From Nitrospirales bacterium (GTDB taxonomy: Bacteria; Nitrospirota; Nitrospiria; Nitrospirales; UBA8639): a stretch of DNA of 42,580 bases. The notes beneath the pieces are model-generated. The model saw only the letters and a program-made list of their open reading frames with translations, was not told the origin of the DNA and searched no databases. The position numbers and the translations under genes are program-made. The DNA is taken from NCBI GenBank assembly GCA_021603905.1, contig BQIU01000030.1, positions 1 through 42,580 on the forward strand. The letters are read 5' to 3'. Shown here in pieces: positions 14,195 to 29,781 of the stretch; position 1 is the first letter of the stretch; every line of letters begins with the position of its first letter.

Positions 14195-15118
14195 TTAGGA
14201 TTTCATGGGAAGATTGATGAGCGCGTAAGGATTGATTCGTGATCCGTTTAGGCGGACGCCCCAATGAAGATGCGGGCCGGTGGCTCGTCCAGTTGAGCCA
14301 ACCTGTCCAATGATCTGTCCTTTCTTCACAACCTCTCCCTCTTTGACGGAGATTTTTGAGAGATGGAAATACATGGAGTACAGTCCGACTCCATGATTGA
14401 GGATGACTCCTTTGCCTGTGAAAAAATGATCATGGGTGAGGCTGACCGTTCCTGTATTCATGGCGACGACCTTGGTGCCTTTCGGCGCGGCGATGTCCTC
14501 TCCACTATGAGGGTTTTTGGATTGTCCATTAATGACTCGTCGACTGCCAAATCGACCGGAGATACGCCCTTTCACTGGAGCGATGAACGGGCCTTCCCAA
14601 AATGGGTGAGGGCTGATAGATACAAAGGCTGCCATCATTTCTTTTCGTTCTGCTTTGACACGAATGAGTGTTTTGTCGTCCAAGTCAACTTTCTTTTTAG
14701 GAAGTTTCAAGTGTTGGACAGAGTAGTTTTCTTTCATGACCAAGACGGTGTAGCTTCGATGTTTTGTCTCAGCCTCTGTTGTGATCGTGATATCTAATTC
14801 ATGCAGGCTGGGCTTATCCTGCATGTCGATTCCCAGGAGTCCGACATAGGTTGTTGATGATTCTTGAATAAACGGAATGTTTCGCTTAAGAAATGTCCCT
14901 GTGACCTTTGTGGGGTTGAGGGTCCCGACCGGCACGTGGACCCAGAGTACCTCTCCTTGTTTGGCACTCAATTGTCCATCAATGCCTGGTCGTTGTTCTT
15001 TTGCACTTGGAACCAATTTGAGCGGAAAAATGCTGGCAATGAGTAAGGTGATGACGAGCAGGATTTTCCCGGGCAGTCGGGATTTTGAGAACGGTTGATC
15101 AATTCGATAAATACTCAT
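14195..15118 (-). CDS. M23 family metallopeptidase (LytM type), signal-anchored
   Basis: This is a 307-aa protein starting at the ATG at 15118. The ATG overlaps the TGA of pafA as ATGA, which fixes the start and implies translational coupling. A hydrophobic N-terminal span (GKILLVITLLIASIFPLKL) anchors or exports it. An accessory beta domain follows, then the M23 domain at about residues 190-305 with the zinc ligands HSGED (HxxxD) and HLHWG, and MYFHLS between. All three motifs are intact, so it should be an active peptidoglycan endopeptidase in the periplasm. Coupling to pafA is odd for a cell-wall enzyme. Confidence 0.92.
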   Translation of the reverse strand: MSIYRIDQPFSKSRLPGKILLVITLLIASIFPLKLVPSAKEQRPGIDGQLSAKQGEVLWVHVPVGTLNPTKVTGTFLKRNIPFIQESSTTYVGLLGIDMQDKPSLHELDITITTEAETKHRSYTVLVMKENYSVQHLKLPKKKVDLDDKTLIRVKAERKEMMAAFVSISPHPFWEGPFIAPVKGRISGRFGSRRVINGQSKNPHSGEDIAAPKGTKVVAMNTGTVSLTHDHFFTGKGVILNHGVGLYSMYFHLSKISVKEGEVVKKGQIIGQVGSTGRATGPHLHWGVRLNGSRINPYALINLPMKS

Positions 15119-16488
15119 GTCTTGAGTCTCGTCTGTGGTACCTGCGTGAGGAGTTCTTCCACTCGTCGGTTGGATGCGCAAAAGGGATCCATGCAGAGTA
15201 TGGTTTCCTCCCAGTAGCCATTCAGTTTTAAGTACGTCCAATCCACGGTGTATGAACGATTTTTGGCTCTCGCGAAGCGAATGAAATCCCCTCTCACTTT
15301 TGCCCGAGTCGTTTGCGGTGGAATATTTTTGGCCCGCTCAATCGCTTCTTCCGAAACGACCTTTCGGATATGATCCCGACCAACTAAGAGATAATACAAC
15401 CCTCGTTGCTGGTTGATATCATGATATTGAAGATCCATCATGGCGAGGCGAGGGTCATCCCATTCACACCCTTTTTTCTCAATATACGATTCCATGATCA
15501 ATTTCTTGGTTACCCAATCGAGTTCTCGAACGAGGAGCATGGGGGAATCTTCTAAGCGATCAAGGACCCGTTCCCATTCTCTCAAAACATCGTGCATGAT
15601 TTTGTCATGAGGCTGAGTTTCGAGGTATTCGCTGGCTCGTTCCCAATACATCCGCTGAATTTCCAGGGCCGTGAGTTCCCGCCCGTCTTCAAGCTTGATT
15701 CGTTTTTTCAGGGTGGTGTCTTTCGAAATATCGCGAATGGCTTTGACTGGTTCATCAAGCTCAACGCTTGGCACGGTGAACTTGTCTTCAATCATGGAAA
15801 GGACTAAGTCTGTGGTTCCAACTTTGAGGTAGGTGGCGAATTCAGACATATTCGAGTCGCCAAGAATAATGTGGAGACGTCGATATTTTTCTGCATCGGC
15901 ATGTGGTTCATCTCGTGTATTGATGATACTTCGTGATGAGGTGGTCGATGAAGAGGTTTTTTCATGAATATGTTGGGCACGTTGAGAAATAAAGTATTGC
16001 GGTTTCCCTGACACCTTGAGGATTTTCCCTGCTCCTGAAAAGATTTGTCGCGTGACGAAGAACGGAATCAATTGTTCCGAGACTTTCCAAAAGTCGACGT
16101 CTCGACGCATGAGGAAATTTTCGTGGCATCCATATGTATTGCCAAGCGAGTCGGTGTTATTTTTGAAAATGAAGATATTCCCGGAAAGACCTTCTTCCCG
16201 TAGTCGATCTTCTGCAATCGGGAGACATGATTCTAGGACTCGCTCTCCGGCTTTATCGTGCATGACGAGGTCAAGCAGATCGTCGCATTCTGGCGTAGAG
16301 TACTCGGGATGACATCCTGTGTCCTGATAAAAGCGTGCGCCATTTGCGAGGAAAGCATTCGATGGCCAACTATTGGGAATCAATCCCTCGAAGATATATC
16401 CAAGGATTTTTTCAATAGGCAAATAGACGCGGCCGTTTGGTGAAAACGTCAGACCATATTCGCATTCAAGCCCAAAGATGCGTTTCAT
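15115..16488 (-). CDS. pafA: PafA-type Pup ligase
   Basis: This 457-aa protein belongs to the Pup-ligase/deamidase family, a glutamine-synthetase-like fold. The N-terminal MKRIFGLECEYGL carries the ATP/Mg-binding Glu positions. HPEYSTPECDDLL and FKNNTDSLGNTYGCHENFL are the shared active-site motifs, and INTRDEPHADAEKYRRLHIILGDSNMSE follows. It lacks the extra N-terminal 'Dop loop' seen in its paralogue at 18586, which argues for PafA. PafA joins the Pup C-terminal Glu to substrate lysines. It is separated from prcA by 540 bp with no gene. GGGGG lies about 7 nt before the ATG. Confidence 0.9.
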   Translation of the reverse strand: MKRIFGLECEYGLTFSPNGRVYLPIEKILGYIFEGLIPNSWPSNAFLANGARFYQDTGCHPEYSTPECDDLLDLVMHDKAGERVLESCLPIAEDRLREEGLSGNIFIFKNNTDSLGNTYGCHENFLMRRDVDFWKVSEQLIPFFVTRQIFSGAGKILKVSGKPQYFISQRAQHIHEKTSSSTTSSRSIINTRDEPHADAEKYRRLHIILGDSNMSEFATYLKVGTTDLVLSMIEDKFTVPSVELDEPVKAIRDISKDTTLKKRIKLEDGRELTALEIQRMYWERASEYLETQPHDKIMHDVLREWERVLDRLEDSPMLLVRELDWVTKKLIMESYIEKKGCEWDDPRLAMMDLQYHDINQQRGLYYLLVGRDHIRKVVSEEAIERAKNIPPQTTRAKVRGDFIRFARAKNRSYTVDWTYLKLNGYWEETILCMDPFCASNRRVEELLTQVPQTRLKT

Positions 16489-16519
16489 GGTAGAACCCCC
16501 AAGGCAATGGAAGCCGTGG

Positions 16520-16762
16520 TTATAGCCGTTTCAGTTATGCCGAATCGGTAGAATATCCATTTGCTAATTTAGATATCCACTACGTGATATACAAGGTCAA
16601 TTGCTGCAGAGCATCCATGTGGGTATAACCTTCCGATATTTGAGGCTTAGTCATACGCTGTGGCAGTCTTATAGCCGATTCAATGTTCTTCCAATTGTTG
16701 GAGTAGTAAATTCCGCTGGGTGAGTCTGGTTGGCTCGCCTGGAAATTTTACTATTCGCTATA
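16520..16762 (-). repeat. Dispersed repeat, copy A (possible MITE or degraded element)
   Basis: Read on the minus strand it shares exact blocks with the copy at 29577-29765: CGGAAGGTTATACCC (16621-16635) and ATAACTGAAACGGCTATAA (16520-16538), 116 nt apart here and 118 nt apart there. A third shared block, ATAGCGAAT, lies near 16753. The ends carry TTATAGC / GGCTATAA, like short terminal inverted repeats. An extra internal TTATAGCCGATTC (16669-16681) makes this copy longer. No intact ORF is present. Confidence 0.7.
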
Positions 16763-16919
16763 ATAATTCAATTGGAAATGAAATGGCTTCGCTATAATTC
16801 AGCATACATCGTGACTCCTCAATCTTCAATATTATAGCAAATTCTAATAATTACTAGTTGAAATTATAACTATTCGTTATGGCATGAATGGTATGAGACT
16901 GAACGATAACCGCTTTAGG

Positions 16920-17026
16920 GAGTCATGTGTCACTTGCCTTGTTGATTGCGAATGTTCGTATTTCTCCCGGTGGCGTGTGCCCAGGCCCTAAGGGTCGGTG
17001 CTCATCCCAAGTGACATGTGACTCAA
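16920..17026 (-). other. Long inverted repeat after prcA
   Basis: The arms 16920-16936 (GAGTCATGTGTCACTTG) and 17010-17026 (CAAGTGACATGTGACTC) are complementary at 15 of 17 positions, across a 73-nt GC-rich interior containing shorter pairings. The structure begins 2 nt after the prcA stop codon. There is no T tract. It could be a 3'-end stabilising or processing structure that sets the prcA/pafA dosage, or a small structured RNA. Confidence 0.5.
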
Positions 17027-17028
17027 CG

Positions 17029-17712
17029 TCAGGAAAGTAGTGTGTGGGTTTCAGCCGAAGGAATGCGTCGAAACTTTCTGCCAAGCCTGTCGCGATCAAG
17101 GATGGCGACTTCTAATCCTTCAATCGTGATGTGTTGTTCTGTTACCTGTTCAAAGGCCTTTTTGCAGAGGGTTAGGGCTTGTTGTAACGTTGGGAGGTTT
17201 TCAGGGCTTTCATTGCGGAGAAAAGTCAGGAGAGCTTCGGCGCGTCCTCCAATCGCGGTCATCCGTTGTTCGTCAGCGATGCTTCCGTCGAACGCAATAC
17301 GATACAGTTCGTTTCGTCCTGGCGCTTCACCCACTTGAGCTAACAGCAGTTCAACTTCGAATGGTTTGAGTTCTTGGCTGAAAATGGTTCCGAGGGTCTG
17401 TGAATATCCGTTGGCTAATGATCGAGCTGTGACATCTTCTCGGCTGTACATTAACCCTTTGAGGTCGGCATGTTGAATGCCAGCTTTTCGAAGATTTTCA
17501 AATTCGCTATATTTCCCAGCTCCAGAAAAGGCGATGGTATCATAGACTTCAGAGATTTTAAATAATGAGGCGCTGGGATTGTCGGCGATTAATAACAAGC
17601 CGTGTTCATATTCAATGGCAATAATGGAGCGTCCTTTGGCAATACCCTTTTTGGCATACTCCGCCTTGTCTTGCATCATTTGTTCTGGAGAAACGTAATA
17701 GGGGAGTGCCAC
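17029..17712 (-). CDS. prcA: Proteasome alpha subunit
   Basis: This 227-aa protein forms the outer, non-catalytic rings that gate the 20S chamber and receive the ATPase C-terminus. The N-terminal YYVSPEQMMQDKAEYAKKGIAKGRSIIAIEYEHGLLLIAD is the standard alpha-subunit start. The first helix is followed by GRS and the first strand, and no N-terminal catalytic Thr is present. Translation starts at GTG, 3 nt after the prcB stop, with AGGAG about 9 nt upstream inside prcB, so it is coupled to prcB. Confidence 0.93.
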   Translation of the reverse strand: MALPYYVSPEQMMQDKAEYAKKGIAKGRSIIAIEYEHGLLLIADNPSASLFKISEVYDTIAFSGAGKYSEFENLRKAGIQHADLKGLMYSREDVTARSLANGYSQTLGTIFSQELKPFEVELLLAQVGEAPGRNELYRIAFDGSIADEQRMTAIGGRAEALLTFLRNESPENLPTLQQALTLCKKAFEQVTEQHITIEGLEVAILDRDRLGRKFRRIPSAETHTLLS

Positions 17713-17715
17713 GAA

Positions 17716-18561
17716 TTAATGCTCCTGGGTTCGAGTGCGAGAGAGTTCTTCCCATACTGTTGAGAGGGTGGCCTCTTCAACGTCTTGAACGCCTTGGGTA
17801 TTGACGAATTTCATCGTAGGGTAGATGCGTCGACGTGGATCTGGTCCACCCGTGCCAACATCTTCCTCGGCGGCATTGGCTAAGGCAAGAAGAGCAATTC
17901 GAATGGCGGCCTGTTTGTCGAGATTTTTTTTGAATCGTTCTTTGAGCATGAGTCGTGCGTCTTTTCCCCCTGATCCCACTGAATGATATTCCGTCTCTTC
18001 ATATCGGCCTCCAGTGATGTCATACTTAAAAATTCGGCCCAGATTTCGTTTGATATCGTACCCAACAAACAAGGGGATGACGACGAGCCCTTGCATGACT
18101 AATGGAAGGTTGGCTTTGACCATTTGTCCCAGTCTATTGGCTTTGCCCTCGCAGGATAATTGAACGCCGTCAAGTTTTTCGTAATGTTCGAGTTCAATGC
18201 TGAACAGTTTGGCCATTTCCACGCAGGGTCCCGCCGCTCCTGCAATAGCCATGGCTGAATAATCATCTGTTTTAAACACTTTTTCCATTCGATTTTCGGC
18301 GATCTGAAACCCTTCCGTTGCCCGCCTGTCGCCTGCAATCACGACTCCCTGATCATATTTGAACGCGAGAACGGTTGTCCCATGCGTCAGGGGGGATGGT
18401 TTGGGTGTGCCACTGAACTCGAAGGTGCTGGGTTGTTGAAGGATCGGTTGTCCCCAGCGTGAAGCTGGTGTGAGTTCTGGTCGATGGGTTGAAAGAAATT
18501 GGAAAAAACTGGAACAGTGATCATGTGGAAATTGAGGGATATCAAGGTCGTGAGTTTTCAT
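17716..18561 (-). CDS. prcB: Proteasome beta subunit (catalytic)
   Basis: This 281-aa protein has a 61-residue propeptide. Self-cleavage would occur in THG-TTVLAF, giving Thr62 as the N-terminal nucleophile. Downstream, GVVIAGDRRAT (with the conserved Asp), EKVFK (Lys) and GSGGKDA are the conserved active-site and ring-contact motifs. Seven-membered rings of this subunit degrade proteins delivered by the ARC ATPase. AAGGA lies 5 nt before the ATG. The gene follows dop by 24 nt, exactly where pup sits in actinobacteria, so there is no room for pup here. Confidence 0.95.
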   Translation of the reverse strand: MKTHDLDIPQFPHDHCSSFFQFLSTHRPELTPASRWGQPILQQPSTFEFSGTPKPSPLTHGTTVLAFKYDQGVVIAGDRRATEGFQIAENRMEKVFKTDDYSAMAIAGAAGPCVEMAKLFSIELEHYEKLDGVQLSCEGKANRLGQMVKANLPLVMQGLVVIPLFVGYDIKRNLGRIFKYDITGGRYEETEYHSVGSGGKDARLMLKERFKKNLDKQAAIRIALLALANAAEEDVGTGGPDPRRRIYPTMKFVNTQGVQDVEEATLSTVWEELSRTRTQEH

Positions 18562-18574
18562 GAAGATCCTTTAG

Positions 18575-18597
18575 CTCTCAGGCGCTTATCCTGAGAG
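18575..18597. other. Hairpin at the dop/prcB junction
   Basis: A perfect 8-bp inverted repeat CTCTCAGG / CCTGAGAG with a 7-nt loop spans the dop stop codon and ends about 14 nt before the prcB ATG. It may serve as a processing or stability site between dop and prcB. Without a T tract it is not a terminator. Confidence 0.45.
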
Positions 18598-20061
18598 TTT
18601 CGTAAGAAGTTGCTCGACGGTTGAGACGCCCTCTAAGAGGTCATTGGTTAAGGCGCGTGTTCCGCGGTAAGGATCCATGAGAGGAATTCGTTTGATTGTA
18701 TCGTTTCCTTGGTCCAACAAGACGGATGTCCAACTGACGCCGTACACCTTTTCTGCGAATTGCTTAAGACACGTTCCTCGGAAGTATGCCCGTGTATTAA
18801 GCGGCGGTTCGACCATGGCCTGTTCAATATCGCTATCTTGAAGTAAGCGTTCAATGCGTTTTCCGCGTTCAAGAGTATAGTACAAGCCTTTATCCGGCCG
18901 CATATCGTGATACTGCAGGTCGAGTAGAGCAATGCGAGGATCTTTCCAGCCACAGACCTTGCGATCCATGAATGATTGAATCATCTGTTGTTTGGCCACC
19001 CAGTCCAGCTCTCGTCCAAGTTGTGTCGGGTCTTGCTCAAGTTTGTCGAGGATTCGTTCCCAAGATACAAGGACATCTTTTGTTCCTGGCGGAAGGTCTC
19101 GAGTATTAAAAAACTCATAAGCTGCCTGAAGATACGTGCGTTGAATATCGATGGATGAGGTGGCCCGGCCATTGGTTAATCGCAGGCTCGCCTTGACGCC
19201 TATGTCACGTGAAACGGTCTTGATATCTCGAACTGGATCTTCAAGGACAATTTTGGGAAACTCCCATCCTGCGTCAAGCATCTCCATAATGATGGCGGTC
19301 GTGCCAATCTTCAGGTAGGTGGGAATTTCTGCCATGTTGGCATCACCAACGATGACATGTAATCGTCGGTAAACATCTTGCTCGGAATGAGGCTCATCGC
19401 GTGTGTTGATGATGGGCCGTTTGACCATCGTATTGAGATCCATCACGCATTCGAAGAAGTCTGAACGTTGAGAAATTTGGTAATCGACGGCGTCGGTGCC
19501 GTTTTCAGACCCGACTTTTCCGGAACCGGTAAAAATTTGACGCGTGACAAAAAATGGAATGAGCGTTCGGGCAATTTTTTCGAAAGGTACTGAACGCGAA
19601 AGCAAATAATTTTCGTGATAGCCGTAGCTATTGCCTTTTCCATCAGAGTTATTTTTGTAGATAAAGAACGTATCAGACTCCTGAGTCGAATTGAGAGCCT
19701 GTAGGCAAACGTTGATCATTCGCTCGCCGGCTCGTTCGTATGCCAGGAGTTCAAGCGGAAGCGTACATTCCGGCGTGGAGTATTCTGGGTGAGCTCCGTC
19801 GACGTAGAGACGTCCTCCATTCAGGAGAAGTTTGTTCAGCTGACGATTATGTCGGATATTCGGTCGCTCAGGTTCTCCCTCAACGAGAAAGCCTCGAGCA
19901 TCAAAGAATGGATTTTCATTCTCATAATCCCAGATGCCCTGGGGAGAAGGGAGCGTGGGGTAGTGACTGATGAGTCGAATGGAATCTGTGACGGGATCGG
20001 AATGTCCAGCCCCCTTGGCAAGTATGCCAAACTCTGTTTCCGTGCCTAGAATTCGGTGCAA
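18586..20061 (-). CDS. dop: Dop-type Pup deamidase/depupylase
   Basis: This 491-aa paralogue of PafA starts MHRILGTETEFGILAKG. It has the additional segment NPFFDARGFLVEGEPERPNIRHNRQL, which corresponds to the Dop loop region, then HPEYSTPECTLPLEL, IYKNNSDGKGNSYGYHENYL and IINTRDEPHSEQDVYRRLHVIVGDANMAE. Dop deamidates Pup-Gln and removes Pup from substrates. The start codon is TTG, with GGAGG 4 nt upstream. It lies 49 nt downstream of the ARC ATPase gene. The assignment to Dop rather than PafA rests on length and the extra loop. Confidence 0.9.
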   Translation of the reverse strand: MHRILGTETEFGILAKGAGHSDPVTDSIRLISHYPTLPSPQGIWDYENENPFFDARGFLVEGEPERPNIRHNRQLNKLLLNGGRLYVDGAHPEYSTPECTLPLELLAYERAGERMINVCLQALNSTQESDTFFIYKNNSDGKGNSYGYHENYLLSRSVPFEKIARTLIPFFVTRQIFTGSGKVGSENGTDAVDYQISQRSDFFECVMDLNTMVKRPIINTRDEPHSEQDVYRRLHVIVGDANMAEIPTYLKIGTTAIIMEMLDAGWEFPKIVLEDPVRDIKTVSRDIGVKASLRLTNGRATSSIDIQRTYLQAAYEFFNTRDLPPGTKDVLVSWERILDKLEQDPTQLGRELDWVAKQQMIQSFMDRKVCGWKDPRIALLDLQYHDMRPDKGLYYTLERGKRIERLLQDSDIEQAMVEPPLNTRAYFRGTCLKQFAEKVYGVSWTSVLLDQGNDTIKRIPLMDPYRGTRALTNDLLEGVSTVEQLLTKLSG

Positions 20062-20110
20062 TGCTCCTCCATGTCAGCTTGAAATTGATGGGTAGGAAGT
20101 GAGACTCACA

Positions 20111-21790
20111 CTAGAAATAGTGTCCGACGCTGACGGTTTCTATTTCTCGTGATTCAGATGGTTCTTCAGTCAATGTCCGAACGTGGATAATTTTTTCACC
20201 TTTTTTGCCGGCTATCCTCGCCCAATCATCGGGGTTTGTTGTATTGGGAAGATCTTCTTGTTCTTTAAATTCCTCTCGAATGGCTTTGAGAAGATCATCA
20301 GCAATAATGCCTTTTTCGCCTGTCGCAATCGCACGTTTGATAGCCATCTTTTTCGCTCGAGAGACGACGCCTTCAATGAGTGCACCACTCGCAAAGTCTT
20401 TAAAGTAAAATGTTTCTTTTTCGCTATTTGCATACGTGACTTCCAGGAAACGATTTTCCTCCGATTTAGCATAGAGCGCATCAGTGGCGAGATCGATAAG
20501 ATGTGCGACCAGTTTTTTAGCGTCATTCTGCTGTTGATCAAGTTCAGTTTTAGAGAAGGGAAGATCGGGCGTGAGATATTTTCCTAGAATTTCCTTGGCG
20601 CCTAGTTTGTCCGGTCGAGGGATTTTCACTTTGACGTCTAACCTGCCTGGTCGCAAGACTGCTGGATCAATGAGATCTTGTCGATTGCTGGCACCGATGA
20701 CGATGACATCTCGGAGGCTTTCGACTCCATCGATTTCCGCAAGAAATTGTGGAACGATAGTTGACTCTATATCTGAAGAAATGCCCGTACCTCGTGTTCG
20801 AAACAACGCATCCATTTCATCGAAAAATACGATGACTGGATAGCCGTTAGAAGCTTTTTCTTTGGCTTTGGCAAAGACTTCACGAATTTGACGTTCAGAC
20901 TCTCCAACATATTTATTTAATAACTCTGGGCCTTTGACATGCAGGAAGTAACTTCGAATATCTTTTCCTGTGAGATGTTTTAACTTTTGAGCAATCGAGT
21001 TGGCGACGGCCTTGGCGATCAAGGTTTTGCCGCACCCTGGAGGACCATATAGCAAGATCCCTTTGGGTGGAGAGAGTCGGTGTTCGGCGTAGAGGTCAGG
21101 ATGTAAAAATGGTAGCTCGACAGCGTCTTTCACTTGCACGAGTTCTTTTTCAAGGCCTCCAATTTGCTCATAGTTCGCGTCTGGGACTTCTTCCAGTACT
21201 AATTCTTCCATTTCGGATTTAGGAAGTTTTTCGGTGATGTAGCCGGACCGTGGATCGAAGAGCAAGAGATCCCCAACGCTAAGGGGTTCATGTTGTAACG
21301 GTTGAGCCACTTCAACGACACGCTCTTCATCATGCCGTAATTTGACCAACGCTCGATGATCATCGAGCTGGATTTTTAATTGGACGACTTCGCCCTGCGG
21401 ATCAAATTCTCGCATTTCGATGATGTTGAGAGCTTCGTTGAGAATCACCTCTTGTCCTTTTCGCAATTCTTTCCCGGTAAGTGCTGGGTGCATGCTGACG
21501 CGCATTTTTCTGCCAGAGACTGACACGTTGGCGGTATCGTCCTGATTCAGACTGCAGAAAATGGCGTAGCTTGAAGGAGGCGCAGTAAGTTTTTCTACTT
21601 CCTTCCGTAATGCTTCAATCTGGGATTTGGCTTCTTGAAGGGTGGAAACGAGACGCTCGTTTTGTTGTTGAGACTGACGAAGTTGCTGACGTGAGTCGTA
21701 GAGCTGATGCATTTCAGTCTCCATAGACTCCAGTTCGCTGCGGAGTTTTTCTAGTTCACTGTTCGGATCATTCTGTTTTCCCATCCCCAT
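20111..21790 (-). CDS. arc: Proteasome-activating AAA ATPase (ARC/Mpa)
   Basis: This 559-aa protein starts at the ATG at 21790, chosen because AGGTGG lies 7 nt upstream. An N-terminal coiled coil (about residues 8-60, Glu/Gln/Leu-rich) would bind the tag protein. Two OB-like domains follow, then one AAA module with Walker A GPPGCGKT, Walker [12 protein letters not shown] and the arginine-finger region [19 protein letters not shown]. The last residues are VGHYF, a Tyr-penultimate tail of the HbYX type that docks into the alpha ring. The protein unfolds tagged proteins and feeds them to PrcAB. It is the first gene of ARC-dop-prcB-prcA. Confidence 0.95.
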
Positions 21791-29435: not shown

Positions 29436-29781
29436 CGAACATGGTCAATTCGAGTTCATTCATCGATACTACTCTTCGGTCGAGACGAGATCACATGATT
29501 TCTCAGGTTTTCGCAAGCTTCTGTCAGCGGCTTTGTTAGTGGATACTATCGCGAATTCATCCAATTCAAATGTCTGCTATAGCGAATCCAAATAAGTTCC
29601 AGCTGGGCATATCAACTAACTCAGCGAGATTATTCACTTCAAACATGCGGAAGGTTATACCCGCTTGGATGTACTGGTGATGATTGAGGTTTTCTGTCAC
29701 GTATTGGATATCAACATTGTACAAGTTGACGCTTTATCGTTTCGGTATAACTGAAACGGCTATAAGGGTCATTATACCAGC
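29436..29781. other. Gene-free stretch between yraN and ftsE holding a repeat copy
   Basis: No gene was identified. Most of this interval is the dispersed repeat copy B (29577-29765). The remainder is expected to contain the promoter for the ftsE-ftsX-envC-ctpA operon, but no clear -35/-10 pair could be assigned. Confidence 0.4.
29577..29765 (+). repeat. Dispersed repeat, copy B (about 190 bp)
   Basis: It shares CGGAAGGTTATACCC (29648-29662) and ATAACTGAAACGGCTATAA (29747-29765) with copy A at 16520-16762, in opposite chromosome orientation and with nearly equal spacing. Its ends, CTATAGC and GGCTATAA, form a short inverted pair. The right end also holds a hairpin GTTTCGGT-ATA-ACTGAAAC. Reading frames across it are interrupted by stops, including a 44-residue open piece (AEGYTRLDVLVMIEV). 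Confidence 0.7.

Follow-up and report, generated by a model that had tools for sequence, protein, structure and literature searches.

Which protein tag is used by a proteasome operon that encodes an ATPase, a depupylase, both core subunits and a ligase, but no tag? The question is raised by contig BQIU01000030.1 (C30) of a Nitrospirales bacterium (assembly GCA_021603905.1), of which positions 1-42,580 have been analysed and are referred to as the window. The genes of ARC, Dop, PrcB, PrcA and PafA are present in it, with recomputed gaps of 49, 24, 3 and 540 nucleotides and with no tag gene among them, as a preliminary description of this DNA had reported; the operon was correctly recognised there, but pafA falls outside the range 16489-21790 that was given for it (Table 1). 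That description proposed that the modifier is either encoded elsewhere or is a different, possibly new, protein. In the current analysis we conclude with high confidence that this is an ordinary Pup-type operon, that pup moved out of it once, in the ancestor of the order, and that its tag is an ordinary Pup encoded on another contig (C125) upstream of recJ and rsh. A parallel machine built around the tag UBact is encoded on a third contig (C32).

The genome is a draft of 4.74 Mb in 203 contigs, 90.8% complete and with 7.5% contamination. A search of the whole genome with the Pfam Pup model gives exactly one match (C125:5835-6026, 71.2 bits; cut-off 27) and none inside the window. The open reading frame found on C125 terminates in LEENAAEFVKNYVQKGGE, with a GGE end (...FVKNYVQKGGE), and is accepted by TIGR03687 (58.5 bits, cut-off 41.45) as well as PF05639 (72.0 bits, cut-off 27). 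A gap-free phmmer alignment matches the final 38 residues of this Pup to the solved Pup chain 3m91_B, 27 of the 38 being identical (E 3.6e-11). The first of the two proposals, a modifier encoded elsewhere, is thereby upheld. A Pup gene elsewhere in the genome with a Gly-Gly-Glu end had been named in advance as the finding that would make the case a relocation, and the C125 gene is such a gene.

With a Pup ending in Glu, Dop would probably be needed as a depupylase and not as a deamidase, and no deamidation step would be required. The end varies within the genus, being GGE in this genome and in G004 and GGQ in G001, G002 and G003 (loci L002 and L050-L053). Across the loci, 80 of 113 Pup reading frames end in GGE and 33 in GGQ, in a set picked by a C-terminal pattern requiring one or the other and counting some genomes twice. 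In G019 (L066), a genome with an otherwise complete operon elsewhere, the Pup carries a short insertion within its sequence (...ALGENAVKENAAEFVKNNVQKGGE).

The curated NCBIfam equivalog cut-offs for the Pup-proteasome are exceeded by all five window proteins (Table 1). PafA matches the solved PafA 4b0t with 378.4 bits, and Dop matches the solved Dop 5lrt/4b0r with 463.2 bits (phmmer). The Asp of a Y-x-D-x-G/A-x-HPEY-like motif has a catalytic role in PafA and Dop. It is retained in both window enzymes when they are aligned to the solved structures, within LYVD-x-AHPEY in Dop, and D56 of PafA is invariant in 12 of the 12 PafA compared. The C-terminal docking tail of actinobacterial ARC is GQYL (x-Y-x), a pattern that is also fitted by the tail GHYF of the window ARC.

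A tree of Dop and PafA, comprising 82 rows from 41 hand-chosen operon loci, separates Pup-type from UBact-type enzymes (98/96), with 24 enzymes on the UBact side including those of C32. The 21 PafA of tag-less operons form one clade (100/100) and the 21 tag-less Dop another (100/98), both within the Pup-type side, where the window enzymes cluster with those of operons still holding pup. The program warned of long branches, chiefly L120, and the window clade is not touched by them. The window operon has no UBact gene inside it and its enzymes lie outside the UBact-operon group; on the tree and the equivalog cut-offs UBact has been rejected as its tag.

UBact has an operon of its own in this genome. 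The genome has four matches to the Pup_ligase family and five to the Proteasome family; the window and C32 each contribute two of either family, and the remaining Proteasome match lies on C47. The complete operon on C32 carries, in the slot between dop2 and prcB2, a UBact of 81 amino acids that ends in RQRTGE (NF033388, 79.5 bits, cut-off 35; PF20513, 74.5 bits, cut-off 27.8), and its five non-tag proteins are all under the Pup-type equivalog cut-offs. With Pup on C125 and this operon on C32, both tag systems are therefore encoded in one genome. UBact occupies the same slot in 12 of the 12 UBact operons read. The ARC tails also fall into two kinds, GHY-x being found in 29 of 29 Pup-type ARCs as against none of 12 UBact-type ARCs, in all of which the last residue is I, V or E. 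Given these tails, the two types of ATPase may differ in docking, each attaching to the core of its own system.

That window PafA and Dop use the UBact of C32 besides or in place of Pup is very improbable. Such cross-use has in its favour the presence of UBact in the same genome and the match of both enzyme pairs to the Pup_ligase family. It is opposed by the Pup-type character of the window enzymes in cut-off and tree, by the segregation of UBact with a Dop/PafA pair of its own, by the difference in ARC tails and by 20 sampled genomes of the order that have Pup with no UBact match.

Pup was found in 137 and UBact in 103 of the 295 genomes sampled from the phylum (both in 96, Pup only in 41, UBact only in 7, neither in 151). 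Among the 57 genomes of the order surveyed for both UBact and PafA, the PafA model finds 3-4 matches in those that carry UBact (43) and 1-2 in the 14 without it, the model also catching Dop so that these counts cover both enzymes. As the counts track the presence of UBact, tag and enzymes come and go together. In genome G056 (completeness 96%) prcB goes unmatched and PafA/Dop gives no more than a trace match (E 7.3e-4). The pup of this genome (contig C79; L069/L219) stands in the usual place before recJ, scores 28.4 bits (cut-off 27) and ends in HYIQQGRG with no GGE. A decayed pup is as expected if the unlinked gene serves the Pup-type operon; the absence of the operon could in principle be due to sequence missing from the draft genome.

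The separation of pup from its operon extends to the whole order. The distance between pup and prcB was compared in all genomes with both matches listed, which are 127 of the 138 genomes of the order. Excluded were five with pup and no listed Pup-type prcB (G013, G056, G077, G255 and G330), five with prcB and no pup (G030, G047, G054, G233 and G305) and one with neither gene (G064). The two genes are adjacent in 0 of the 127. Where a single contig carries both (40 genomes), the distance ranges from 41 kb to 1.42 Mb, and in 39 of the 40 the strand is the same. All 39 genomes compared outside the order (15 of 15 in the rest of the class and 24 of 24 in the rest of the phylum) have pup as the gene just upstream of prcB and in the same orientation, the domain matches being no more than 184 bp from each other. 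Excluded there were G127 and G183, which have pup without a listed prcB match; in G183 a partial match to prcB is all there is, and it lies on a different contig. In 21 operons of the order that were read, that of the window included, no Pup reading frame is found in the slot between dop and prcB.

A scan of a genome collection gave 80 named loci, of which 60 show both dop and prcB. Pup lies between them in 40 and not in the other 20, which are 17 Nitrospirota-like records and 3 of Candidatus Rokubacteria. In Nitrospira moscoviensis (NZ_CP011801.1), which falls in the order of the window as well, the slot is empty and Pup is encoded at 3405290-3405478, about 50 kb from prcB and next to recJ-rsh. 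A PafA tree of 52 rows, from 29 operon loci and a hand-chosen 23 of the 80 named loci, places the window PafA inside the Pup-type clade and needs the trait to change twice, once in the order and once in Rokubacteria.

The slot holds pup in L144-L148, five records under the titles Nitrospirae or Nitrospira sp., all of which lie outside the tag-less clade. One of them, L145, titled 'Nitrospira sp.', was considered as a counter-example and set aside, its PafA grouping with the PafA of G203, which belongs to the same class and another order. The nearest neighbour of the tag-less clade is L144, with weak support (90/72). The slot is empty in L128, a record titled Nitrospinota whose PafA is at zero distance from that of G006, a member of the family of the window.

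In all three Candidatus Rokubacteria genomes (L151-L153, L214-L216) the slot between dop and prcB is empty and Pup is encoded elsewhere. The stretches fetched around Pup in these three genomes gave no RecJ or RSH match. In the two for which reading frames were listed, Pup follows a gene resembling deoxycytidine-triphosphate deaminase and precedes a LysR-type gene, both named by eye. Rokubacteria provide a second and independent example of a pup that lies away from its operon.

In the order pup has a characteristic new position. Of 50 loci examined there (47 genomes), 45 have recJ after pup on the same strand, at 17-660 bp; in three of the remaining loci rsh comes next (336-400 bp), and the last two are short contigs with neither gene. 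In the long loci rsh is on the strand of pup in 20 of 20. RecJ was matched in 10 of the 19 genomes searched outside the order, with rsh adjoining in all 10; no Pup match occurs within up to 1.5 kb of recJ-rsh in any of these ten, nor in longer stretches around it in six of them. Since recJ-rsh stands without pup outside the order, comparison of these loci makes it most likely that in the ancestor of the order pup was inserted upstream of a recJ-rsh pair that was already present. Scans for promoters and terminators gave counts at the level of chance both at the pup locus and in the 540-bp gap of the window operon, and therefore nothing is drawn from them on co-transcription of pup with recJ.

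Several observations weigh against a relocation common to the order. In 87 of the 127 genomes pup and prcB are on different contigs, for which it is adjacency alone that is excluded. The assembly analysed here is itself a draft, in which linkage between C125 and C30 is not directly visible; the two genes are also split in four congeners, and in one of these, a genome of 2 contigs, they are 1.41 Mb apart. No Pup match was obtained in the five prcB-bearing genomes of the order listed above, and G064 lacks both genes. RecJ is likewise unmatched in G233, G054 and G064, and G305 shows no more than a fragment of recJ at the start of a contig, which points to missing sequence in these four. For G030 and G047 the RecJ check is uninformative, as the two long loci of their genus have recJ at a place not beside pup. 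The literature surveyed holds no conjugation, binding or expression results for this organism.

A new, unrecognised modifier, the second proposal of the preliminary description, was not borne out and has scarcely any probability left. It is favoured only by the empty slot between dop and prcB. A genome with neither Pup nor UBact would have spoken for a new tag, and this one has both; the window enzymes are Pup-type by curated cut-offs and tree, and UBact has its own operon. A standard Pup with an intact GGE end is encoded in the genome, Pup is found in 93 of the 97 genomes of the order that were searched (this one included, and one being the decayed copy of G056), and pup has decayed in that relative, which lacks the operon enzymes.

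The 540-bp gap between prcA and pafA was likewise rejected as the site of such a modifier. Among frames of at least 20 codons on both strands, none ends in GGE or GGQ and none has any other tag-like end, which agrees with the earlier reading that the gap holds no Pup-like frame; there is also no Rfam match in it. Its length is not conserved, being 102-443 nucleotides in four congeners and 27 to 1454 nucleotides across 20 loci read from the order. Part of the gap (16520-16643) is about 75% similar to another stretch of the window (29639-29765), the pair being likely a short interspersed repeat. A piece of 28 nucleotides from this pair also matches a congener at L052:2796-2823.

An origin of the C125 Pup in some other bacterium contaminating the draft bin, which the 7.5% estimated contamination might allow, is hardly credible and has been rejected on synteny, the string pup-recJ-rsh being common to all four congeners, the 2-contig genome among them, with RSH 84-97% identical. 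The 3.2-kb pup stretch also has a G+C content of 0.47-0.50, inside the window range of 0.42-0.50.

Table 1. Features of the window operon and the second proteasome operon (window coordinates unless another contig is named)
Feature	Position	Strand	Evidence and remarks
ARC/Mpa proteasomal AAA ATPase	20111-21790	minus	TIGR03689 732.3 bits (cut-off 504.75); OB + AAA domains; C-terminus ...VSVGHYF; ATG start at 21790, alternative longer TTG reading extends to 21853
Dop, depupylase/deamidase	18586-20061	minus	TIGR03688 541.1 bits (cut-off 492.3)
dop-prcB gap, 24 nt	18562-18585		slot for pup outside the order and for UBact in the C32 operon; empty in the window
PrcB, 20S proteasome beta subunit	17716-18561	minus	TIGR03690 288.5 bits (cut-off 191.9); propeptide ends before TTVLAF
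PrcA, 20S proteasome alpha subunit	17029-17712	minus	TIGR03691 290.3 bits (cut-off 139.05)
prcA-pafA gap, 540 bp	16489-17028		no tag gene, no Rfam match
PafA, Pup ligase	15115-16488	minus	TIGR03686 568.5 bits (cut-off 551.3)
Second complete proteasome operon	C32:18190-24895 (L090:8191-14896)		ARC2-Dop2-UBact-PrcB2-PrcA2-PafA2

The gene content, positions, family membership, tree and conservation described above are observed; read in the light of the known biochemistry of pupylation, they suggest that Pup rather than UBact would serve the window enzymes in the cell. PafA is predicted to join Pup, through its C-terminal Glu, to substrate lysines, from which Dop would remove it again. ARC would bind the Pup helix, unfold the tagged proteins and feed them by its GHYF tail into the PrcA/PrcB core. 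The ARC2-Dop2-UBact-PrcB2-PrcA2-PafA2 set would run a parallel process with UBact.

The system described here resembles the actinobacterial Pup-proteasome (arc/mpa, dop, pup, prcB, prcA, pafA) in having the same enzymes and subunits in the same order, a Pup with a VQKGGE/Q end, and a PafA and Dop that match 4b0t and 5lrt over nearly their whole length. It differs in the place of pup, which is upstream of recJ-rsh and not between dop and prcB. Like the UBact system (NF033388, PF20513), the genome shows the gene order ARC-Dop-tag-PrcB-PrcA-PafA, on C32; that operon is paralogous, and unlike the UBact system the window's own proteins are not UBact-type. Two full operon sets in one genome are also known from Leptospirillum ferrooxidans L1 and L2, the second with a tag that lacks GGE and is called Pup in the legend to Fig. 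2 of PMC3511204. We infer that this second tag is UBact. In that paper both L. ferrooxidans copies are described as identical in gene context, unlike the genome analysed here, whose Pup-type copy is without pup.

According to PMC2588565, Pup has one PafA gene as its immediate neighbour without exception, and PMC3511204 describes the gene order as rigidly conserved; PMC7947786 has Dop and PafA conserved in Actinobacteria and Nitrospirae. In the window operon no pup is adjacent to dop/prcB or to pafA. Such adjacency is a habit of gene order reported in the literature and not a biochemical requirement. In the accessible literature on UBact, on Nitrospira pupylation, proteasome and Pup, and on Leptospirillum Pup we found no report of pup outside the operon in this order; most subscription papers were beyond reach, and priority is therefore not claimed.

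These results remove a false lead, as there is no new modifier. For Pup, the whole order and, independently, Candidatus Rokubacteria form an exception to the adjacency and the rigid gene order stated in PMC2588565 and PMC3511204. As pup lies outside the locus, such genomes would be mistaken for tag-less ones if nothing but the locus were searched. It is possible, though rather unlikely, that the relocated pup has a regulatory use, the supply of the tag being controlled apart from the degradation machine and with or beside the gene of a (p)ppGpp synthetase/hydrolase. With the UBact-tagged second proteasome, whose ATPase has another docking tail, running in the same cells, this would give two insulated tag-proteasome channels, one of them with a tag supply linked to the stringent response. 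Two points deserve a note, the shift of pup to a place beside recJ-rsh throughout the order and the joint presence of two complete tag-proteasome systems, and the occurrence of Pup and UBact together in 96 of the 295 genomes of the phylum allows one to ask, within one cell, why two systems are kept.

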